NCBI GenBank assembly: GCA_003117195.1
Contig: BDSI01000075.1
Location: forward strand, 426,852-490,851
Direction: 5' to 3'
Length of the DNA: 64,000 bases
From: Eudorina sp. 2006-703-Eu-15
Taxonomy: Eukaryota > Chlorophyta > Chlorophyceae > Chlamydomonadales > Volvocaceae
Positions 3,325 to 26,200 of this stretch are shown here, piece by piece. Both the position numbers and the translations under genes were made by a program. The notes beneath the pieces were generated by a model, which searched no databases, was not told the origin of the DNA, and was given only the letters and a program-made list of their open reading frames with translations. Numbering within the stretch: the first letter of the stretch is position 1; every line of letters starts with the position of its first letter.

Positions 3325-4669
3325 CTACTTGGTGTCTATATTGACCGGCTGCGCCCCCTCGAACAGCTCCCTCATGTGCGCGTTGGTGGCCTTGTCCACA
3401 TTGAACCGCCGCTCCACCTTGCGGCGCTTCTTCTTGTCCTTCTTGCCGTCGTCGTCCTTCTTGCGCATCGGCCGGGCCGCCAGCGCCGACTTGAGGCCCA
3501 GGTCGCGGCAGCCCCACGTCAGGTCCACCACGTCCACGGGCAACTTGATGCTGTGGAACAGGGACACCACCGCCTCGCCGACAGGGCCTGGGGTGCCGCC
3601 GCCACCACCACGGGGCGAGGAGAGGAAAGGAAAAGAGCGAGGGGGAAGGGCCAGCATTGCGGTACACATTGACTGACTGGGATTTTTTCCTGCATCTTGT
3701 TTATTGTGTTTGCCAGGAGCGCGCTGCCCCGCGCCCCCACAACACCAAAAGTCTGGTAATCGGTGCTACCGTACAGCCACATGCTACTGCTGCTACAACA
3801 GCGCGCGCAGTACCGGCAGCTGCGAAGCGCACGGGCAGCAGCAGCAGCAACGCACCGATGCTCATGTTCTGCACCGCGTAGATCACGTCGCCCGTTGCGC
3901 CCGTGTTGCCAAAGACGTACACGGAGCCCTCGGCCTGCAGCCGCTTGATGTCGTCCAGCACGTTCAGGTAGGCGTCCGCGATGTCCGCCACGCGCACCCC
4001 CGTCATGGGCACCGCCGCGGAGGCGCCCTCCACCGTCGTGTGGCGCCGCAGGTAGTTGAGCAGGTCGGTGGCGTTGTTGATGTTCTGGACCCGGGGCCGG
4101 TACCGCAGCGTACGGTCCCTGGAGTCGTACGTGACGTGGGTGTGGGACTGCAGCTGTTCCAGCAGCTCCGAGTCCACGGAGAGGTCCACATGCAGCTTGG
4201 CGCGCACGTCGGCGAAGGTGTGCGGGTCGCGGTTGGCGCGGAGCAGGTCCAGCACGCGCTTGAGGCGCATGGTGAGGGGCGCGTCCGGGGCGAGGGGCGC
4301 CGGGCCGCTGGCGGCCGCGGCGGCGCCGGCAGCGCCGGCGGCTGAGGCCGCCGCTGCCGACTGCGGCCCCGGCGGCGGCGGCGTCACGCGGCTGGCGGGG
4401 CCGCTGGCGGAGGGCGACGCTGAGCCCGTGGCGGGGGTCGAGGCCCGGGCGGCAGCACCCCCGCCACGTTCGCGCTTCTCCCCGGCGGCCTTGCCGCCAC
4501 CGCCGCCGCCGCCGCCTTGGGTGTTGACGGCGCCAGCCTGTCCACGAAGACGCTTCTGGAGGTCGGTCTGCGCCTTGGGTTTGCGAGGCTGGCGCTTGAC
4601 GGCATCGGACGATGTGACATTCACGGCGCCGGAGTTGATGCTGGAAAGAAGCTCCTCAAGAGAGCCCAT
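3325..4669 (-). CDS. GTF2E2: transcription initiation factor IIE, beta subunit
   Basis: TFIIE beta pairs with TFIIE alpha in the RNA polymerase II preinitiation complex, where it helps recruit TFIIH and open the promoter. Two exons on the minus strand, 4669-3856 and 3587-3325, join in phase 1 through a gtgcgt donor and a ccccag acceptor, giving 358 aa. The start is the first in-frame ATG, opening MGSLEELLSSINSG. A basic segment and a Gly/Ala/Ser-rich linker (about residues 35-135) follow. Next comes the winged-helix core, with LKRVLDLLRANRDPHTF, the motif VTYDSRDRTLRYRP, and DLLNYLRRHTT leading to IADAYLNVLDDIKRLQ. The second exon gives a Lys-rich stretch (KKDDDGKKDKKKRRK) and the C-terminal tail. 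Human and plant subunits are about 285-290 aa; the extra length is the low-complexity linker. I am sure of the family. The exact linker splicing is not in doubt because the linker lies within one exon. Confidence 0.88.
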
Positions 4670-5263
4670 ACTTGAGTGTCGGCCTTGCAACGGGGCGGTG
4701 GCCGCGGAGAAGACGTCCCCCGCCCCGACAGTGACACGATTACGTTTCGCTGGCTTAAGTTTGCAGAGACAACCCGTTACTCAAGTGAGTTCAATATTTC
4801 ATACGTCGACTCTTTCGTAACGTGGTGAAATAAAAGCTCAAGGATGAAAAGATGCAAACCGCTGAACCGTCAGGTAGACAATGTCAATTCTATTCCTGCA
4901 AGATAAACTCGCGCGGAAAAAGAAAGTGGCCTCTGTGACGTTGGAAACAAGAATGTCATGTCTACATACGGGCCTTTTCATGAAGTACGGTTCTAGCAAC
5001 AGGACGAAGGCCAAGGGCGATCACACTCGTGGTCGTGCCATCGCCGCTGGAGAGCATCGGCCGTTATTTTCATGGTCATGTTGTGCCATGATTTGGTTCA
5101 TTAGATCTGTTTGGAAGTTGAAGTTTACGCCCCGTGGGTCGCTTCCCAGTATCCATCGTAATGGAGCTCACCGTATCCATAGAGTCAAACAAGGCAGAAT
5201 CGTTCACTGTTCCATGAACGCGTCTGGTCATTCGGACTGGTGTCCTGACGAGTGCAATCATTA
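4670..5263. other. upstream region of TFIIE beta, no gene seen
   Basis: Between the TFIIE beta ATG and a retroelement tail. The part from about 4740 to 5260 is clearly less GC-rich than the exons, as is usual for promoter and 5' leader sequence here. No TATA box or gene is claimed. Confidence 0.5.
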
Positions 5264-5952: not shown

Positions 5953-8900
5953 CTAGGGCAGTATGAGGGACCACAGCTCCGCCGTGAAGAGGCCGATCAG
6001 CGCGACTTGCGGCGCGAAGGTGACCCACGGGGCGGCCGCCAGCTTGCGGCTGAGGGCCGCGGAGGCGGCGGCGCCGAAGAGCAGCAGCGCTCCCTGGGGG
6101 TTGGGCAGGGTGTGGGGCGTGCATGTGCGGGTGCGGGAGAGGGCAGGTGCGGGAGAGTGTCGAGGGACCCGTTGGTTACCGTATGCAAGGGGGGAGGCGC
6201 GGTGGGGCCCTGGACGGGCACCCGTGGGGACTCAGCGGGCAACGGACAGCGGGTACGGCATCCCCCGGTACATCCTGGGCCCATCGTTTCTTTGAGCACC
6301 GCGGTAGTACGGCACCGTACCGCAGCATGCCCGGCGCGGTGTGGCGGGTTCCCGCATCCACGGCGGCCCATGCCCAGGCCCCAGGGCCGCCCGCTCCCTT
6401 ACAGAAGTCTACGATAGCCGTCCGGCCTTTCCCCGACTCGAGGTCCCCGACGATGTCCTGCCCTCGGGCTCACAGCAAAAACAAGAAATTTGAATTTCAA
6501 ACCTTCTGCACCGCCAACACGCACGCCAAATGCAGTGGTAAGAAAGCTGCTCGCTGCCCTCGACGCGTTTCCTCCCGCTTGAGGGAACCCCAACCCACCG
6601 ACAGGAAGTTGATGACGGCCGGGTCCGCCGCCACAGAGGGAAGCGGCGCGTCCTCCCAGCCGACTGCCGCGGCCGTGACCTTCGTCCGCGGGCGGGTACC
6701 ATAAGCACACATGTGCCATGAACACACACAGGAGTTGTTAGTTATTAGTTGTTGGCAAGTAAATCTTAGGTCCTGGAGAGTATCCGGGCATGGGCGGTTC
6801 TGGGTGGGCTTCTCCTTATACACACAGGAGTTGCCGTAACACAGAGGTTACGACAACTCCTTTCGGGAAACACACTCTGCGGGGGACTGTCGCTGACTTG
6901 CGAAACGGCACCAGTCGGGCGATTCCGGGAGCGCAGCGGGTGCACGTGCCCCGGGGCGCCAGCCTTGCCGCTGAAGGGGCAGTGGGCCCGGCATTGCCGC
7001 TGCGGAAGCGCTGGGCTGGAACCCCAGCGCCCCACCCTCCCTCCCACCCACCCACCCATCCAGCACCCACTAAGGTACCCCGCCCTGCAATTCCGCGGTC
7101 TCCACCGACTCAGTGTCCCAGTCAACGGCCCCGCCACCCACCAGAAGCACCTTGCCACCCTCCCCCAGGAGACTGGGCAGGTAGTGGCTCAACGTGGAGG
7201 CCCACAGCAACGGCAGGTAGCCGTACGACAACGTCAGGAAGGGCCTCGGCGTCACGGGCGGCGCATCCACAGCGGCCGCCGCTGGCACCGCCACGGCGGC
7301 GGCGGCGGCGCCGCCGCCGCCCGCCGGGGCGGCGGGCTGGCCGCCGCCGCCGCTGCCGAGTCGATCCGCGGCCTGCGACACCAGGCCCGACAGGAACGTC
7401 CCCGTGGAGGCGAGGGCGTGGGGGTTGCGCCTGCAGGCGGCGTCGGCGCCCCAGGCGATCAGTCCGGGCGCCGCCAGTACGACAACCGACGCGGAGACGT
7501 GGGGCCAGGTGACGCCGTGCAGGGCCAGGGCGGCCGGGTCCAGCCCCAGCTGACCCACCAGCGCGTCCAGGTGGTGCAGGAAGACTGCCGGAGCGGGGTG
7601 AGGGGGAGGGGTGCACCGGTACTGGTATTGGTACTGGCTGGTGGGTTGTTTCCCGCGTGCGTTTGGCGTGCGAATGGATGTCGCTGTGTCGGTGTGTCGG
7701 TGGTGTCGGTGTGTGAAAGGGATCTGGGAATGAGGAGGTGCACTCGCGAGTCGCATATGAATGGCAATAACAAAGATTGCGGAGCCCCACGAGGAGGGGG
7801 CTTACGGGCGAAGCGGTCACTTGGGGCGGGCGGTCGGGGCCGCACAGCCCGACGGCTCCTTGATGGGTGCTCGGGTGGTGTCACACTGGGGCCACCGGCA
7901 TTATGTACGGCGGTGTACGGTTTCCGGTGTACACGGCACTCACCCGCGCCCTGCAGCATGAACATGAGCGACACCTCCGCCACGGAGGCGGTGTGGCCGC
8001 TCCACAGGTCGGTACCCGGCGGCCGCAGCCGGAACTGCACCGAGCCGTTGGGACACGCCTGCGCGGTTGAGCGTTAGCAGTTGGCGCAAGAAAAAAAGGA
8101 ACGGGGGCGTATTTCTACGCGCCTTGGTTGCATGGCTCCACACCGGAGGGCCAAACGCCAAAACCAACTCGCCCCTATCGGTTGGCGGTTAACAGGGAAT
8201 TACGGCCCCTTTTATGGTCAACCCTTAAGGTGCGCTCCATCGCCCTCACGGGGAAGTAATATGTACGATACCCGAGTACGGCACCTTATCGTTGGTGCGC
8301 CGCTGCGGCCCCAGTCGTCAGCGGTCAGCCGCTCACCTTGAGGCACTCCATGCAGTTGACACAGTTACGGTTGTCGGTTAGCTGGGCGGGGTGGCTGTAC
8401 AGCGGGCAGCCGGGGCTCTCAAGACCCTCCGGTGGCTGCGCGCAGCCGCCCTTGTAGCAGTGGTAGGTGGAACACTCGCCTGCACGGGGATGGAGCGGGG
8501 TTGGGGGGCTGGGAGGAGGCTGGAAAGGAGGAGAAGGCCAAGGGGCGCGAGACAGAACCTGCCACGATGCGCCCTAGCCTCCCGCCCCGCGGTAAGGGCT
8601 CCTTACCCACAGGCCAACCGGGGGCCCCTATATCCCCTGGCCGACTTCCTCACCCGCCCATCCCCCTTCATCCTCACCCCCTCACCCTCACCCCCTCACC
8701 CTCACCCCCACCCCCTCACCCTCACCCCCTCACCCGAGCACACGCCGTGCCTAGCCCTGACCTCCGTGATGGACAGCTTGGCCATCAGGCCGTTCATGCC
8801 GCCGATGGGGCACAGGTAGCGGCACCACAGCCGGCGCTCGAAGATGGAGGAGCATATGACTGCGCCCGCCGTTATGATGATGAGCAGCCAGCCCGACAGC

Positions 8901-11900
8901 GCGGCAGTGTGGGGCAGATCCCACACCTCCTCCCACACCAGGATGGCGGCGAAGAGGGAGAACAGAAAGATGGGGCCGTACCGCTCCGCTGTGTGGGTTA
9001 CGGACATTGTACGAGGCCGGACGTGAGGGCGGGTGCGAGTACGACAACGACGGAATAAAGCGTGCCCGATGGGAAGCGCGTGGCTATGGAACACCGACCC
9101 ATGGGTCAGCAGCCATGGGTCCGATCGGCGATCGCGTCCCTGGATCCAGGATCCTGGCCGCCCCCCAACCAAATCCAACAAGCCCCGGTCGTACCCTCCT
9201 CCCGAGGCCACTTGTGGAGCTTGAACGCGCCCCCCGCGGGGCTGGTCCGCCAGGCCTGCGCCAGCTCGCCGTAGATCATGAAGGGGCACACGGCGCACCA
9301 GACGCGGCCCAGGAAGATGTACGACACGAAGACGAGCGGCCACCAGTAGTCCCAGAAGAGGGACAGCCCGGGGTTGTGCATCCGGTCCTGACAGGCGGCG
9401 CGGAGGATGGTGGGAGGAGAGAGGAGGGAGGAGGAGGGTATGGGAAATTCGTTAGGGTGGGAGGAGAGAGGAGTGTGGTGGTGCCGTAAATTGCGCCGGC
9501 CCCGGATTATCGGGCCCGCACCCCTCCGCACAACAGTCCCGTCCCCGTCCCCGTCCCCCGTCCCCCCTCAACTGAGGACCCCACCTGCGGCCCGAACAGC
9601 AGCAGGGCCACAATTAACGGGTACACGATGGCGGTGAACCTGTCAGGGGCACAGTCAGGGCACAGACAGGGACTGTCAGGGGCACAGTCAGGGGCACAGT
9701 CAGGGGCACAGACAGGGGCACAGTCAAGGGGAGAGCGTGACCCGGAGTGTTTGTAATGAATGATGGCATAAGCGGCATAAAATGAACAACATAATGTAAT
9801 AATGGACCGCAAGAGCGATGTCTTGGTGTGAAGCAAAACAAGGGCAGGGTGCCCCAAGAAGGCCCACTGGGGTGAGTCCGGACCGTTTGCGGGCAGGGAC
9901 GCACTTGAAGTTGATGTCGTTGGGCCACAGGGTGGAGCGCAAGAGGCGGCGCAGGGGCGGGTAGGTGGCGAGCAGGTTGAGCCGGAAGCGGTCCTTGGCC
10001 TTCGGGGACGGGCGCAACGGGCGGGAACGGGAGCAACGGGCGGCAACGGGCGCAACGGGTCGCTGAGGTAATGGCTGCAACCTTGGACTGCCCGGCATTG
10101 CTCAATCCCACCTCGCAGCCCCGTGACTGCGCCCATGTCAGGGAATCGTCGGAGGCCGCTGCCGCCGCCGCCGCGTCGAGCCTCCTCGTTACCACAGCCC
10201 CGCCACCCCTTCGCCGCCAAACACCATTCGGCTGACGCCTTGGTCGGCTGCCAGCATCCTACAGTTCACCGTCGGGTACCGGGTGTAAAGTGCGGTCCGC
10301 ACCGGCGCACCGTACCTGCTTCGCGAACCAAAACACCTCCTCCGTCAATCGGCCGCCGTCCTGCGAGGCCGTGGCGCTGTCCAGCCCCTGGATAATCGCG
10401 CGCTCCACCACCTGGGACAGCTCCTGGGGGGAGGAGGGGCATGCGTGTGTGTGGGGCGGGGGGTGTCGGGGAGAAGGGGCTCAGAGGGGCAATGTCGGGA
10501 GGTGGGGGTCCGGGAGGGGGCGGGAGGGAACGCAACAGCAAGCCCAACCCGGGTTGAACCACCTGTGCAGCCTCACTCCTTGTTCGTTGTCTTACTGTGA
10601 TCATGTCTTTTGAGACGTGGATCGTGTTCCCCTGTGTGCTGTTCGGGCGCCAGACATCGAACACAGTTAGCTCCCGGTGCCCCCCTACGCAATTTCTTTC
10701 CGGCACGACATGGCTCGACCGATCGGTTCCGCTTCCACGCCACAGCAGCCGCGGCGGTGGTGGCTGTGGAACTCACGCAAGCAGCGTCTCGCGCCGCCTC
10801 CCCGCCGGATTCGTGCAGCAACAACAGGCACGCAGTGTGTGACACCGTACTGCCGTACCGTACCATGCCGTACACCAGCCGTACACATCCGCGTACCGTG
10901 ATGTTTCCGGGCCACGCGTAGCTCTCCAGCGCCTTGACGGCCGCGGGGGTCACGGCCAGGCGCGGGGTGGCGGTGGCGCTGCTGCCCAGCGTCCGAACGA
11001 ACTGCCGCGTGTAGAACCGCTGCAGGTCCTTGACGTCCCCCGGGCGCAGCCGCAGCGGCGGGACCTTGATGACGGTGGCGACCTTGGCGTCCAGTTGGGG
11101 CAGCTGCAGGGGGGTGTGCATGGTACGACGGTGTACGGTATGATGGTACGGCACGGGATGAAAGGGGTGAGTGATGGACACGGGACGGGGTTGGAGCGCA
11201 GGTGGGCCGGGGCGAATCAAAACTACTGCAACTGCGCGGATGGTCCCCGGCATCGTCCTACAGACGGACCGCGGGCCAATACGGTAGCGCCCCCCAACTG
11301 TCAACAAACCTGGCGGTTGGACGTCATGATGACGCGGCAGGCGGCCCGCTGCAGCGGCGGCAGGTCATCCGGCGGGGCGTCGCTGCTGGACAGCGAGAAG
11401 GCCCGGTCGGAGGGCGGGGAGACGGGGGCGCGGCGGTACGTACGGTCTCGACACAGGCGGACCAGCTTGGGCACCAGCGCGGGGTTCAGCTGGGGGTTCG
11501 CGGAGGGGAGTAGGGCGGGGGGGAGGGGTTGTTTCCTAGTGGGGCGCGGCGGGGTGGGTATGTGCGCGCATGTTACACGAGCGGTTCAGACCAAAGCAGC
11601 AACCGCATCAGCAGCATCAGCAGCAGCAATGAAAGAGAAATGCCTGTATACGTGTTTAGGGGTGGGTAATCCACCCAACTAGGGTAACATACCAGGGTGG
11701 GGGTTGGGGGTCCGGGTGGTTACCGACGGCCGCCATCCCGCCAGCCGCCCTGTCATTATCGCCCCGTCCATGGCCGCCCGCCGCGCTGCTCGCAACCCCA
11801 CACCCCCTCCACAGACCCGAGCGCATCACCGCCCCGCCCTCCCCGCCCCGCCCCGCCCCGGATCGACCAGCTGTCCACCAGCCACCAACCACCTCAACAC

Positions 11901-13585
11901 AGCCCTCTCAGCTCCCACCTTTTGCACATTCTTGAGCAGGAGCGTGCCGTCCCCCACCAGCTCCACGAGCCCCGCCTTCTCCCCCCGCCCGAACAGCTCC
12001 GCACCGTACGGATCCAGCCGGGCGCAGTCCAGGTAGGCCATAGGGCCCTCCCGGCCGGGGCCGCCAAAGTGGATCAGCGTGGCGATGTTGGATTTCTGGA
12101 GGCCCGGCTCCCCGAAGACGAGGACCGCCTTCCTGCGGGCGTGGGTGTGTGTGGGGCCGCGGAAGGGTGGGTTTCGGACGGGCCCTGGGGTCGGTGCACG
12201 GTGCGGGGTACACACGTGGGGGAGGCTACGACGCGAGGCGGGTACGACACGGGTCTAGGAGCGTTGAAGACTCCCACGTCCAGCACAGGCCTCTACCGGA
12301 CGGCGGGGTCAGAGAGCTACGGCGTCTCTAGATCGGGCTAGCCGCACTGCAGCAGGCGACGGCTATCCAGGTACTCGGAACTCAAGCGCCCCTTCCCTTC
12401 CCTCCCCTCCTGCCCTCGGACGGTACTCGGGCACCAGTCCCGCGCCCCTTGCTCCACAGCACCCGATACACCCGACCCCGACCTCCCCGTTGGCGCCATA
12501 TGAAGATCTGATATTGCGTATTGGGCACCCTAAGGATCCCCTTCCCCGGGGTAGTCCCCACAGGCCGAGCACCACGGACGGACGGACGGACGGAGTACTC
12601 GAGGCGACGCACCGGCTGGGGTCGCGGGCGGCCGTCACCACCTGCCGCCTCAGCTGCTCAGCGAACTTGGAGGCGCCTACGATGCCGTGGGTGGGGGAAG
12701 CCACCAGGTAGGGCGCGAGGGCGCGGAGGCGCTTGCGCTCTTGCTGCGGGCCAATGGCGTTGAGAAGGGGATAAATGCGAAGAAAGCCGAGAACCAGCCA
12801 GCCCGGGGACGGGGGCGGGGAAGAGGCGGCCGACGGAGCGTGCAGACCGGTGATGAAAGGTGGGAGGTGCGGGAAGGGCGGGTCATAATCAGGGATTTTG
12901 TGTGCGAGCCAATGCTGTCTTGTAGTGCTTACAACCGCCTGGCGGTGGAGTGGTTGCACCCGAGGCGCGGGCGCGGACAAGTTCGGCACTCCAGCGGATA
13001 AATGCCCGATCCCCTGCTGACACTGGTATGGAGTTAAGCATAGCAGTGGAGACGAGCAGATGTGGTGTGCAGGTCGAAAGGAAGTACGTGCATGGTACGG
13101 CCGGACAAATACCGGTACACCTATTCACTTGCCGGATATGACTCGCGTGTATTGTTGTTGCATTCAATTGAGTTCTTTGTTGTTTCACATTGGCTCGCTT
13201 GGAACGTAAGGTGTGCGGCGCGTGCTTGGGGCACCAACGACAGCTTCTGGTAAATCGCAACGACAAAATGTCATCGAGGTTAAGAATGAGATTCATCACT
13301 TGCCTGCATCTCCTCGTTGAGCTCCTCCAGCTTTTCGAGCTTCTCGGTAAGCTGTGCCTCCGGTTCGGGCTCCAGGCTCCCCAGTGCGCCAGCAGCAGCG
13401 AGACCCGTGACATTTCGCAGCTGGCATGGAGGCGTTGCCCGTAGCACAGGTGATGCATAACGCTTGCAAATGAATGGCAGGGAAGCCCGTCGTCCAAGGG
13501 CTGGCGAGGGATGCAAGCTGACGGGTTTCTGCCGACTGAATGACAAGCTCGCACATGTATCAACCCGCCCTGACTTGAAAGCCAT
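5953..13585 (-). CDS. AAA+ (enhancer-binding-protein-like) / membrane polyferredoxin fusion protein
   Basis: Fifteen exons on the minus strand: 13585-13304, 12743-12613, 12132-11919, 11489-11310, 11103-10897, 10423-10316, 9999-9905, 9639-9585, 9387-9195, 8988-8734, 8479-8337, 8058-7944, 7584-7079, 6679-6599 and 6093-5953. All junction phases agree and give 901 aa. Residues 1-60 are Arg/Ser-rich and acid-poor, like a plastid transit peptide; a short acidic coiled segment follows. Residues 95-374 resemble the AAA+ domain of sigma54 activators: GEPGLQKSN at the Walker A site (145-153), GTLLLKNV where GTLFLDE is usual (200-207), VIMTSNR (sensor I) and WPGNITEL (sensor II region). Residues 380-901 have several hydrophobic helices and CxxCP (455-458), CxxxCP (544-548), Cys572/576/581 and C613-x2-C616-x2-C619-x3-C623-P, as in NosR/NapH polyferredoxins. 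The first intron uses a GC donor (cag, then gcaagt). Exon 1 is the least certain part. The family assignment is from motifs only. Confidence 0.85.
8661..8735. repeat. C-rich simple repeat (ccctcac)n in an intron
   Basis: Tandem ccctcac/ccccctcac units in the AAA+/polyferredoxin gene, directly downstream of the donor of exon 10. On the transcribed (minus) strand this is a run of ggtgaggg repeats able to form a G-quadruplex next to the 5' splice site. Confidence 0.85.
9640..9732. repeat. 12-bp tandem repeat in an intron
   Basis: About seven copies of a 12-bp unit (cagtcaggggca, with cagacaggggca variants) lie just upstream, in transcript sense, of the acceptor of exon 8 of the AAA+/polyferredoxin gene. 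In the transcript this is a ctgtgcccctga repeat that also serves as pyrimidine-rich sequence before the acceptor. Confidence 0.85.
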
Positions 13586-14701: not shown

Positions 14702-17700
14702 TCACCCCCACCGGCGGAACAGCCCCTCGCCCGATTCCTCCAGCACCGGGTGCGGCAGCCGCTGGTGACCGCTCACGTGGCTGCTCCCTGCGGCGGCCCC
14801 CTTGCTGGCATATGCCGCCGTGGGGCGCATGGCCCGCGACTCCCCGACCGCAACCGAATTGTTGGCCATGGACATGCCCACCGACTGGGCCATCCAGTTG
14901 ATCCAGTGCTTCTGGCGGTGCTGCGAGGCGCACACCGAATCTGCGACGCCGCCGTAGCCCACGTTGGACTCGCCGTTGCTGAGGCCGCTGGCGCTGCGCC
15001 GGGCGGCTCCGAAGGCGCCGCTTTCGGCCGGGTCAGGCCCCGCCGCGGACACTCGCGACGCAGCTGCCACAGCTACTGCCACGGAGGCGTCACCACTGGC
15101 GGTCGACTCCGTGTCCGGATCGGTTGCGGCAGCAGCGGCGTTGATATGGGCTACAGTGGCGTTCCCGGCCATCGGATGAGGGACAGCGACGACCGCCGAG
15201 GTGGTTTCGCCGCTGCTGACGGGACCGTCGATGACGCTGGAGGCGTCTTCTTCCAGGGAGCCGCCGCTGCCGCCGGCGGTGTCCTGGGAGGCCGCGTCGG
15301 CGCAGAAGCTGACGTCCGGCGGCCCTGCTGCGTGTGCGAGATGTGCCACCCCCGCAGGCGCCTCCGGCGGCCCAGCGGCGTAAGCGGCGCCGTAGCGCCT
15401 GCTGCCGCTGCCGCGCTGCTGCAACGCGGTGACCGTGGTATTGAGCGCAACGAACCGCTGGCTGCCGGAAGCTGCCGAAGAGGAACTTGTCCGGGCGGCA
15501 GCCGCCACAGCAGCAGCAACAGAGGCAGCTGGTGCTGGCGCCTGCTGGGTTGTGGCGGCTGCGTCAGCTCGCTCGCCTGCGGCGCGCAGGACCTCCTTCA
15601 TGCGGTCCATCTCCGGTCCGTCGATGAAGCTGGGCCGGATGGACGCGAAATTGACACCATCGTCGTCATCACCAGCGATGCAGGCGCCGGTGTACACGGG
15701 CGCGGGCGCTGGGGGTGCAAGCGGAGGCGCCGCCGCGGCCCCGCCGTACCGCGACTGCGAGCCCTGCCGCTGCATCATCCGTGGGGCACCTGCGAGCAAC
15801 ACCTGCTGCGGCGTCGTGGCGGCGAGTGAGAAGTTGTCAGCGGATGCACCCACGCCGTCATCGACGTAGTCGTCGTCGTCGCTGCGGGCGCTGACGACCC
15901 GTGAATCCGCATCCCTGGCCGGCGTTGTGGTGGCGGTCACAGCTCGTTGCAGTTGCGTGGAAACCGCATCAGAGGCGGTTTGTGGGGGTGCTGCGGTGCG
16001 GCGCAGAGTCGGCGGCGCGGTCGCGTTGTTCCGGGCGTATACACCATCTGAGCGGCCGCTGCCACCGGGCGCCGCAGCGGTGTTACTGCCGCTGTCCGAC
16101 CCCATGCGTGCCAGGGCGCTCAGCGCCGCACCGCCCGGCGCGACCACGCCTGCGGCGTTGCTGATCATGTGGCCGGCGCCGTTGCCCCGCTGGGAGCTTG
16201 CGGCGGCAGACCCTACGTTCACGCGCGTGTTCAACCCAGCTGAGGATTCGGTGCCGCTGCCCAGGCCGTTGCTGCTCGCTGCATTCGTGGCGCGCAGCCC
16301 CCGCTTGGAGCTGCGGGAGTTCAGCGCGGCAGGCTGCTGACTCGGTGTCGCTGCTTGGGCGCCGCCGGCCGCAAAGGGGGACGCGAGCCTCGCCGCAGCG
16401 GCAGCAGCGTGTCCAGCGGTGAAGGACTCGCCCAGCAAGACCCGGGACGGAGTCGAGCTGCTGTCACAGCGGGGCCCTTCCGTGTCCGCCTCGGCGATGG
16501 GCGTCATGGTGCTCATCCGGTAGCTGTCCCACGGGACCGCGGGGTCCATGGAGCTCAGGGCGGTGCCACCGCCGCCGGCCGCGCTGCCGCTACCCCGCCC
16601 CGCGGCGCTGCCGCTGCCATTGAGCATGGCGTGGTCGATCATGGAAGACAGTTTGGAGGACGTGATGGTGTCATACGCGGCGGCTTGAAGGTCGCGGGAG
16701 CTGCCCGGCCTGGGCGGCGGCAGCGGCGCCTCCGCACTGGAGGCTTGCGCCCGCATAGGGCTGCGGGCGGCGGAGGCGGCAGTGCAGGCGGACATCGCAC
16801 CGCCATTGCCGACGCTGGGGGCCTGGGTCGGGAGCTGCGACGCGTGCGACGCGGACGGGTCCAGCGCGAGACTGAAGAGGGAGGCGTCGCTTGCGGAGAG
16901 GCCGGAGGCGGTGGGGCCGCCGGCTGGCTGTTTGCTGGGCTGCGAGACGCTGCTGGTTTGATCGGACGGGTGATGGGCATCGTCCGCTGTGGGGCGCATG
17001 GGGCCACGAGGCACGTCAGCGGGAAATGGGGGCGCAATCAAGCGTCCCAGGTAGCTGAAAGTAACGTTGCTATACAGGATGTCTAGGATTTCGGCTCGCG
17101 TATGAATGATTACCCGGTCGAACTACAACTTACCGCGGCGCTGAAGCGTCTGGGAGAGGTGCGAGAGTTTCGGTCCCTGCACGGCAAGACAGGCGGTGGA
17201 TTATGATTTGGTGGTATGGGGCGGATACGTTGAGGCTGCATAGGCCTTGCGATGTAGCCAGCGGCTCACCTGCATCCACGCAGATATGACCTCCGAGTCC
17301 GCAGAGTCCGGCGGCTTCAGCGCTTTTGGCACGTCGAACTTCGGCGGGCTGCGGACAGTGCTGATCGGCAGGGCCGATGGAATGGGGAACGACGTCGAAT
17401 CTGCGAGGGTGCTCTCGCCCTCGTCGTTTGAGCAAGCGGTCGTGTAGGTAGGGACGGCGGGCCCGGCACCGACGTGTGGCGAATCGGTGACCTCTGGCGG
17501 CGGTATGGAGCTAGAGGCCGGCGCTGCGGTTGCAGTGCAGGAGGGCAGCGGATGCGTGTTGGCATTCAGTGCCTTCCATCCTCTCAGGCATCAAGAGTTC
17601 CCGGTCGCGCGCTCCTCCAGGTTTCTGGCGCTTTTTATACCAGCACTCCAGTCACTTCCCTCCAACCTATGTAGGGAACGCTCATGACAATACAGCCGCT

Positions 17701-23200: not shown

Positions 23201-26200
23201 CGCGCCACTCCAGCAGCGCCGCGAACACCGCCGTCTGCTGCGGGCTCAGGATCAGGTTCCACTTGAGGAGCAGCTCCTGCGGGGGTGGCGGTCGGGGGGT
23301 TAAAAAGAAACAGCCCAGACACACCCAGTCCGGCGACAAATACTTACCAACGATAATTACCGGACGGGAAGGGAAGGGACGGGAAGGCAAGGTGCATAGG
23401 TAATGCCAACGGCCCAGGTAGGAAGGTGGAAGGTGGGAGGGAGGGGTATGGCAAATTGGTAGACATGTCCAAAACTGGGTGCGGGGAGGTAAGGTACTGC
23501 CAACGAGCAAGCGTCTGCAAGTAAAAGACCGGGGGTAGGGTGGGTTGATATCTAGACGCACCCAGCCCGGTGAGGTGGCTGCGGGTGCTGTGTTGAGGGT
23601 GGTGGCGGTGGTGGTGGTGGTTATGGATGGGGGTGGTGGCGGTGGTGGTGGTGGTTATGGATGAGGGTGGTGGCGGTGGTGGTGGTTATGGATGAGGGTG
23701 GTGGCGGTGGTGGTGGTGGTTATGGATGGGGGTGGTGGTTATGGATGGGGGTGGTGGCGGTGGTGGTGGTGGTTATGGATGAGGGTGGTGGCGGTGGTGG
23801 TGGTTATGGATGAGGGTGGTGGCGGTGGTGGTGGTGGTTATGGATGGGGGTGGTGGTGGTGGTTATGGAGGGGGGTGGTGGTGACCCGCGGGGTTGGCGG
23901 CGTACGTGCGCCTCGGGTTCCCCTTCCCAGCCCTGCCGCCCTGCCGTACTGTCGTACACCGCACCTGGTATCCTGTGGCCGAGAACGCGGGTTTGCGGTA
24001 CGTCTTCAGGCACAGCTGCCGGCTGCGCTCCAGAACCAGGCCCAGCCCGCCGCCGGGGTTGCTCCCCGGCAGCGGCACCACCAGCGAGGGCGCGATCTGC
24101 ACCAGGGAGGGAGGGCGGCCGGGCGGGCGGGCGAGTTATAGCGGGCGGTGCGCAGGAGGATGCTGCCTTGGATGCCAGTCCGCCCGTGTTGACCCCTTAT
24201 GTCGATTGGACTGGTATTTCTCCCGTTTCCCCCTCAACCCCCCCGGGCACAGCTGATGATGGGTTGATTAGCCCGGTCTTGTCCCTGATGCCCATCAGGA
24301 CAGCGAGAAACCGCACACACCCTCATCCTCCCCCAAGTGCCCTTGCTCCACACCCCGCCACCCCCCACTTCGCGCCCCCCCACCCACCCCGCACCCACCC
24401 GCTCGGCCGGCAGCGCCGCCAGCTGCTCCCGCAGCTTGTCGTACACGTACAGCAGGTAGTGCGTGTCGCACCGCGCGTAGTGCAGCATCTGCTCGCTCAG
24501 CGGCCGCACGCGCCAGTCCGCCATCTGGTACCGCTTGTCGGGCGCCACCCCGCACAGGCTCTCCATCAGGTGCGCCAGGCCGAAGGAGGGCAGCGCCAGC
24601 ACCCGCGCCGCCTGCCCCGTGTCGAACATGTTGACCAGGAACAGCCCAAAGTCGCGCTGCAGCCACTCCACGTCCGAGTCAGCGCCGTGGAGAACCTGGC
24701 GCGGCGGGCGGACGGGCGGACAGACTAGTTGCTCGAGTGTACGTGGTGTACGTGGTGTACGGGCGTGCACGTGTGGAAGTGCGTTTCATTAAGGCAGCGT
24801 GACACGACGTCCGCACACGCGACGCGCGAGCGGGGATCACTCTTCGCGACCTTCCCCGCCCGCGCGCACCTTGACGACCCGCGGGTCGGCGAACACGCGC
24901 GCCAGCGCGGGGCCCAGCTGGTTCCGGAGCGCCAGCGTGTCCACAACGTAATCGGTGGATCGGGTGGAGATCTGCATCAGACACGTAAATCCCAGGAACG
25001 ACCTGCGGAGGTGCGGGGGAGGCGGCGGGGAGGCGGCGGAGTGGGGGTATAGGAAATTGGTAGACATATTCAAACTGCGCTGCTGCCAGAGCAGAGGTCC
25101 GGTGAAAAACCAACTGTACCAGGTGTTGTGGCGAGCCGGTAACGTTAGACGACCATTTCTGACAGCCAGAGCAAAGCGCCGGTACAGATCCTGGTCTCTG
25201 AATTAGCCTGATCCCCGAGTAATATGCACAGGGAAGGGGGACGGCGGAAGGCGCGATGCGCGGCCGGAACGGCGCGGGCCCTCGGGATGTCCCCGCCCAT
25301 CCCGCGCCCCCTCCTCCTCCTCTCCACGTCCATACAATGAAATCAGCCGCATGCCCTCAGAGCGTTCGAACACCCCTCACGCTCCGCGTACCCCCCTTCC
25401 CCTCCCCCGGGCCCACCGGTGAGAGTGGTGCTCCAGGTCAATGGCCAGCTCCTCTGCCGTACTCAGCTCCGAGACCATGGCCTCCAGCGCCGCCGGCGTG
25501 TCCACCCACACCAGCGGGCTCTCCTCGGGGAGGGCGGGCGGCCGGGGCTTGCTGGCGGGGGCCTGCAGCTGGTCGGGCCGGTAGACCAGCGCCTCAAGAT
25601 CCGCCGCGAAGGGGTGCGGGTAGTCCTCGGCTGCACGGCGAAGAACGAACGACGACACGGCGCCCGGCAGCGCTCGGCAAGGCGGGTGGTGGGAGACGGG
25701 GTCCGGCCCGCGGCGGCGGTAGTTCGTGGACCGCGAGGCGAGGTGTGCAGCCAGGGCGCGGATTGAATGGGGTGTTCCTAGGCCTGGGTAGTCGTGGCCC
25801 AGGGCGGGCTCACCCGCGTCACTCTTATCAGTGCAATCGCCAGGACACCAGCTGGCCTCCCCAAGGTGCCCCCGTTCAACACCGCTTCTAACGTACAAAT
25901 ACTAATAACACAAACACGTTGTGCCCTATGCTTCCTGTGTGCCCCATAAGCCCCCGCGCCAGCGGGGCCGCGCTCCCCCGCCCCATGCGGCAGCTGGCTG
26001 ATTGCGGCTGCAGGCAGGCCCGGGCTTCACCCGGGGGGCCTCAAGCACTCACGCGCGCCCGGTGCCGCCAGGTAGACCCGTGGGTCACAGGGCTCCGCCG
26101 TAAGGCCCTCCAGGTGGTCTACTCGCGGCCGGAAGGGCACCTCCCGCCGGTTGTCGGGCCGCGGGTCGAACAGCTCCTGGGGACGGGCCAGGCCGGCGGC

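Follow-up and report, generated by a model that had tools for sequence, protein, structure and literature searches.

A Eudorina member of an annotated family joining a sigma54-activator-type AAA+ module to a NapH-like membrane polyferredoxin

Bacterial enhancer-binding proteins, such as PspF, NtrC1, NifA, NtrX, and FleQ, possess an AAA+ fold, a lid, and a Walker A lysine. NapH/MauN ferredoxin-type membrane proteins possess membrane helices, two CxxCP-type cysteine pairs, and two ferredoxin-type cysteine sets. The gene considered here has all of these. It is found within what we call the window, that is, the whole analysed stretch of 64,000 nucleotides of Eudorina sp. 2006-703-Eu-15 DNA (contig BDSI01000075.1, positions 426,852 to 490,851 of the forward strand), where it runs on the minus strand from 13585 to 5953. 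Its product has a sigma54-activator-type AAA+ domain and then a NapH-like polyferredoxin, an order confirmed by both profiles and folds, as is the claim of the original prediction (an earlier reading of this DNA from its letters) that AAA+ similarity occurs within a single fused protein. The gene adds a new member to an annotated family, one in which an activator-type AAA+ module is carried by a polyferredoxin, and the literature listings searched gave no description of this protein as such. The reading which we favor, with a probability of roughly 0.58, is that the protein transfers electrons at the chloroplast membrane, that its AAA+ domain is regulatory and binds ATP without hydrolysing it, and that the gene likely came with the plastid.

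The closest relatives are algal and cyanobacterial. Protein searches returned 1848, 2099, and 1987 matches, the best 120 of each being listed, such that absence from these lists is weak evidence. Among the best 120 of 1848 are volvocine, trebouxiophyte, and other green algae, two Klebsormidium copies, and cyanobacteria, with Volvox carteri (74% identity, local alignment) and V. reticuliferus the closest of the matches listed. The V. carteri protein, named ‘nitrogen assimilation regulatory protein’ (P0001), is an ortholog that has the same domains and shares 606 of 856 aligned residues (71%), differing in sequence only as related species do. In that same list the cyanobacterial homologs, named as ‘sigma 54-interacting transcriptional regulator’ or ‘cyclic nucleotide-binding domain-containing protein’, are about 50% identical over some 85–94% of the searched residues. 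These proteins, e.g., P0073 of Picosynechococcus sp. PCC 7003 (840 aa), share with the Eudorina protein the order of AAA+ domain, lid, polyferredoxin, and C-terminal membrane bundle, along with all 12 cysteines, and they likewise lack GAFTGA and the Walker B acids. They differ in that most of those listed carry an N-terminal cyclic-nucleotide-binding-type (CNB) domain, PF00027, in the place of which the algal N-terminus is transit-like; they differ also in usually reading Lys-Asp-Asn after Walker A, where the algal protein reads Lys-Ser-Asn. Some cyanobacterial members have no CNB domain, i.e., Pseudanabaena types of about 730–770 aa and small-genome types of 657–725 aa. As cyanobacteria carry the same fusion, and had already lost GAFTGA and the Walker B acids, two of the original claims fall: that this is a eukaryotic fusion, and that its AAA+ part decayed following transfer.

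The state of the AAA+ domain, which is of the Sigma54_activat fold type, was read from an alignment (A1) of 103 rows: 14 distant-clade loci plus 89 proteins, the latter reduced from 187 to 95 by a filter (700 aa, 78% identity) and then to 89 upon omission of P0012, P0018, P0020, P0043, P0059, and P0108. All 67 family-conserved positions (63 invariant and four nearly so in A1) are kept in the Eudorina protein. The Walker A lysine, here K151, is present in 103 of 103 rows. At the position of the Walker B glutamate, by contrast with active enhancer-binding proteins, no row has glutamate (0/103) and 100 have asparagine, the Eudorina protein reading K205-N206; the aspartate that precedes this position is kept in eight of 14 distant-clade rows and in three of the 89 others. 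GAFTGA is found in none of the 103 rows, with the Eudorina protein displaying a gap there upon alignment to NifA. After the Walker A lysine comes threonine in 13 of the 14 distant-clade rows, but aspartate in 54 of 63 and 15 of 26 other rows, the Eudorina residue being serine. The sensor II position is arginine in 25 of 103 rows, the Eudorina sequence, WPGNITEL, lacking that arginine. These counts support the proposal that the AAA+ part lacks residues which an ordinary ATPase or a sigma54 activator would have. The change in Walker B is borne out as well, but the retained Walker A lysine had been overlooked, and the replacement of the sensor II arginine, though real, is not special to this gene.

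Fold matches include Walker B mutants, PspF E108Q (4qnr, 4qos) and NtrC1 (3m0e), titled as ATP- or ADP-bound. Because the Walker A lysine is conserved throughout, and because the substitution of asparagine for the Walker B glutamate resembles these mutants, ATP binding probably is retained by this domain. Hydrolysis, in turn, would appear from the sequences to have been lost stepwise in cyanobacteria with nucleotide binding retained. Two VIA-align fold lists have rows that cover the AAA+ part, plus one CNB match (9la1), and matches from a viral fold library are mostly to general AAA+ proteins; as the two VIA-align lists barely probed the membrane fold, we do not claim that this fold is new.

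The polyferredoxin module is the most conserved region of the protein (86% identity to V. carteri). Its 12 cysteines form two CxxCP-type pairs and two ferredoxin-type sets in a protein with predicted membrane helices, ten of them being invariant in A1 and the remaining two found in 102 of 103 rows, in keeping with the earlier description of the iron-sulfur motifs as intact. These cysteines may hold three [4Fe-4S] clusters. Three histidines at the ends of predicted C-terminal helices, H643, H663, and H688, are kept in 102–103 of 103 rows and could, at a guess, constitute a quinone or haem site. Similarity to NapH/MauN profiles is significant, though the curated profile TIGR02163 is not reached (56.1 bits versus a cut-off of 213.05), and the Eudorina protein differs from NapH/MauN in the spacing of its first ferredoxin-type set, C-x3-C-x4-C-x16-CP, in an extra C-terminal bundle, and in its AAA+ domain. 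By analogy with NapH, a quinone would be the most likely membrane partner.

That these modules belong to one gene is supported by its structure. Fifteen exons reproduce the earlier predicted 901-aa protein, confirming that claim, except that exon 13 was 63 nt too long: The 21 residues at its end are absent from six of six aligned homologs, and as they are found in none of these, an in-phase donor 63 nt upstream is taken to be the correct exon end, giving 880 aa. The structure as modelled, which is shown by homology, is as follows (window coordinates):

Exon 1, 13304..13585, minus strand: start codon and N-terminal 94 aa; GC donor.
Exon 2, 12613..12743, minus strand: linker and start of the AAA+ domain.
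Exon 3, 11919..12132, minus strand: Walker A GEPGLQKSN (aa 145-153), site of the absent GAFTGA loop, and Walker B LLLKNV (aa 202-207).
Exon 4, 11310..11489, minus strand: AAA+ domain.
Exon 5, 10897..11103, minus strand: AAA+ domain and lid, up to WPGNIT.
Exon 6, 10316..10423, minus strand: AAA+ lid, ELSQVVERA.
Exon 7, 9905..9999, minus strand: linker toward the membrane module.
Exon 8, 9585..9639, minus strand: predicted transmembrane segment no. 1.
Exon 9, 9195..9387, minus strand: predicted membrane segment; first cysteine pair, CAVCP (C455, C458).
Exon 10, 8734..8988, minus strand: predicted membrane segments; CRYLCP (C544, C548), which is cysteine pair no. 2; also C572, belonging to the first ferredoxin-type set.
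Exon 11, 8337..8479, minus strand: ferredoxin-type sets, C576, C581, C598 (with H603) and C613, C616, C619.
Exon 12, 7944..8058, minus strand: C623 and H643; the C-terminal membrane bundle begins here.
Exon 13, 7142..7584 (3' boundary corrected; 7079-7584 in the first model), minus strand: C-terminal membrane bundle, H663, H688.
Exon 14, 6599..6679, minus strand: C-terminal bundle.
Exon 15, 5953..6093, minus strand: final predicted membrane helix and stop codon.

The alternative that this is two separate genes, or instead assembly contamination, can be given next to no credence. Cyanobacterial homologs are single open reading frames (ORFs), P0015 and P0016 in EukProt are complete ORFs, exon junctions agree with homologs once exon 13 is corrected, and the gene has 14 introns and lies in a contig that is 490 kb or longer; the two-gene reading was rejected. 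When the entire 181-Mb assembly was searched in six frames with the protein, pieces of this gene were found at one locus only, with 11 matches, all within C75:434257-439594. Residues 1-60 include one acidic, 10 basic, and 11 Ser/Thr residues, a composition that resembles that of a chloroplast transit peptide. No Pfam match to a CNB domain is seen in the protein, nor was one found in the window by tblastn of eight homolog N-termini (five from named algae, two from metagenomes, and one cyanobacterial), the sole significant matches from which were to AAA+ residues within the P0073 piece.

With regard to origin, we consider it likely, as cyanobacteria share the fusion, that the gene was inherited with the plastid from a cyanobacterial ancestor, and homologs and tree both support the ancient cyanobacterial origin that had been proposed. 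In a quick tree of 68 author-chosen rows, rooted on the distant clade and supported by SH-aLRT without bootstrap, 29 algal-type rows form one clade (SH-aLRT 100) opposite 30 cyanobacterial rows (95), as plastid inheritance would give, with the Eudorina protein within the algal clade and paired with V. carteri and V. reticuliferus. A later horizontal transfer out of a cyanobacterium, rather than descent from the plastid ancestor, is quite unlikely. What speaks for such a transfer is that named eukaryotes among the best 120 listed in two of the protein searches (those with 1848 and 2099 matches), where many rows are without names, are green algae and Klebsormidium only, i.e., land plants, red algae, and glaucophytes are absent from the named rows. 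Set against this, the algal clade is found beside rather than within the sampled cyanobacterial clade, the algal clade spans chlorophytes plus one streptophyte, and the window gene is interrupted by its 14 introns. As an aside, Edaphochlamys and Chlamydomonas incerta have two copies each (P0003/P0008 and P0005/P0009), apparently on one contig each, and these pair within species in the tree, indicating separate duplications.

Family occurrence was assessed across 291 cyanobacterial-phylum genomes. A match at E <= 1e-60 is seen in 74, with distant-clade and small-genome types counted, and PsaA/PsaB in 140, among which are all 74 carriers (Fisher p = 3e-30, uncorrected for shared ancestry). The gene slr1529, the ‘ntrX’ of Synechocystis, is probably a family member as well; it is not among the best 120 of 1987 matches, and its knock-out (PMC5318462) is not used here as evidence. 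That gene, annotated ntrX, is reported to be lowered to 0.29 by copper (PMC4182526). Three further cyanobacterial-type members, P0018, P0020, and P0021, are about 1120 aa in length, with P0018 displaying, by eye, a tandem double AAA+ domain.

As to function, the protein would be located in the chloroplast membrane, where its polyferredoxin module would pass electrons, a quinone being the likeliest partner, and where its AAA+ domain, holding ATP but not cleaving it, would thereby gate or position the redox module, i.e., there would be an adenylate-dependent effect on the iron-sulfur part. A more specific version may be offered tentatively, as possible though short of probable: an ATP-gated electron valve from the plastid ancestor, for which the change from glutamate to asparagine was fixed in cyanobacteria, with an ATP-bound switch then coupling adenylate level to electron flow through a three-cluster polyferredoxin and being retained in green algae. 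Automatic names suggest instead a regulator of transcription, which is highly improbable. Though sharing its fold with enhancer-binding proteins, this protein lacks both GAFTGA and the Walker B acids; no separate HTH profile is seen after the AAA+ domain among the profile matches listed, with predicted membrane helices occupying the place of a DNA-binding domain; and an exon-by-exon search of the alga's genome, with positive controls, turned up no PF04552, the sigma54 DNA-binding domain. That domain exceeds the cut-off in two of the 291 phylum genomes and in one of the 74 carriers (G121, 62 bits), a further carrier, G009, having a match below it. Due to these motif losses and the near-absence of sigma54, a true sigma54 regulator was rejected; the name ‘sigma54-interacting regulator’ is misleading, and the sequence points rather to a membrane redox protein.

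Less readily set aside, though still unlikely, is a redox sensor or scaffold, for which the AAA+ domain would read the iron-sulfur clusters and report on the redox state of the plastid, no net transfer of electrons taking place through the protein. A plastid or membrane redox role, as originally predicted, is plausible; its sensor or scaffold version survives only as this rival. A signalling-family AAA+ domain is indeed kept, at 75% identity to V. carteri, most listed cyanobacterial members bear the CNB-type domain, and the main clade has no conserved enzyme partner alongside; yet no output domain (DNA-binding, kinase, or cyclase) is present among the profile families listed (12 of 12; best 25 of 29), and it is the iron-sulfur and membrane part, with its nearly unvarying cysteines, which is conserved the most. 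Improbable too is a metal or other reductase, or a maturation factor, of the CcoG/RdxA type, that is, a polyferredoxin through which metal ions or cofactors would be reduced at the membrane. Conserved CxxCP/CxxxCP pairs together with ferredoxin-type sets would suit this, as would, by eye, the Zn ABC permease-like ORFs adjoining loci L097 and L098 and a Fur-like ORF adjoining L100. The lowering of slr1529 by copper would suit it also, provided that slr1529 belongs to the family. Against it, no neighbor is common across the main clade and no metal reductase is found among the best 25 of 29 profile matches.

A number of observations weigh against the favored reading of an ATP-binding, plastid-inherited electron-transfer protein. 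Aspartate after the Walker A lysine, which 69 of the 89 rows from the main clade and algae have, could weaken Mg-ATP binding. Among small-genome rows H643 is methionine in eight of eight and H663 is replaced in two of eight, and H603 is replaced in L099 (these wider-set counts cover H603, H643, and H663, not H688). A sequence search for solved relatives of the membrane half gave weak ferredoxin matches only. Algal homologs P0011 and P0013, by eye, have no transit-like N-terminus at their listed start. The tree is without red algae and glaucophytes, and P0004 and P0010 were grouped as algal in it though from metagenome contigs. P0004, which lies inside of the volvocine clade, has a CNB-type domain, and loss of that domain therefore is not one clean event in the sample; its absence from the window gene reflects either repeated loss or a domain outside of the reach of the tblastn search. 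With 74 of 140 PsaA/B genomes matching and 66 not, the family is dispensable for oxygenic photosynthesis. Lastly, the main clade, including the Eudorina gene, has no conserved gene neighborhood.

Neighborhoods were taken from a related-loci search (best 80 of 92 loci), the homologous ORF, in some cases incomplete, being located via its CPIGG motif in 79 of 80. Across 65 main-clade loci the largest recurring neighbor cluster occurs in nine and is a loose ABC-ATPase chain. A nitrate-transporter neighborhood was rejected, as blast from one member of the nine-locus cluster reached only four loci, whose ABC ATPases are divergent. Genes of the nitrate type, identified by eye, occur in two Laspinema loci. 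The distant clade differs. In 13 of the 21 distant-clade loci a cysK-like (cysteine synthase) gene follows downstream at up to about 540 bases, three of the 21 having fewer than 240 bases of downstream sequence (13 of 22 on a stricter count that includes L099, whose Walker motifs are distant-clade-like), versus zero of 65 main-clade loci and zero of nine others, the latter being eight small-genome types plus L099. The cysK-adjoining loci (L075, L078-L081, L083, L088, L090, L092, L104-L107) mostly have a GKT Walker A. A profile scan of ten neighboring genes from two of these, L080 and L081, found cysK, PetC, and an ArsR-type regulator over cut-off, with SQR, HdrB, HdrC, and a sulfur-dioxygenase/glyoxalase below it, and one neighbor without a match; judged by eye, L079, L092, and L107 contain ORFs that resemble cytochrome bd. 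These neighbors tie the distant-clade cousin to sulfide-related redox metabolism, a tie that does not thereby show the main-clade role. Within the small-genome CNB-less group, by eye, the ORF overlaps an SDR-like gene in L096 and L100, the Fur-like ORF of L100 lies 8 nt downstream, and the permease-like ORFs of L097 and L098 are of the Zn type.

Elsewhere in the window, all on the minus strand, the neighboring ORF at 3704-4780 has similarity to TFIIE beta (TFA2 winged-helix domain 2, E 5e-11), being an ordinary gene for a nuclear transcription factor, and two open frames at 24237-24785 and 24840-25202 hold parts of a DNA_pol_A_exo1-type 3'-5' exonuclease (E 1.3e-29 and 3.2e-5). Upstream of the gene, at 14705-17122 and likewise on the minus strand, an 806-codon open frame of high GC has no Pfam match at E 0.001 and may be due to chance or be a gene of unknown kind. 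Rfam gave no match in the window at gathering score.

Of the cyanobacterial genomes in the sample that have photosystem I, about half carry the family described here, which is found, within that sample, solely in such genomes and is kept in green algae, with sigma54 nearly absent from its sampled carriers. Were the ATP switch to prove true, then the motor domain of a bacterial transcription activator would have been reused to control electron transport. The gene is, in addition, a photosynthesis-linked one that is open to knock-out both in cyanobacteria and in Volvox-type algae.

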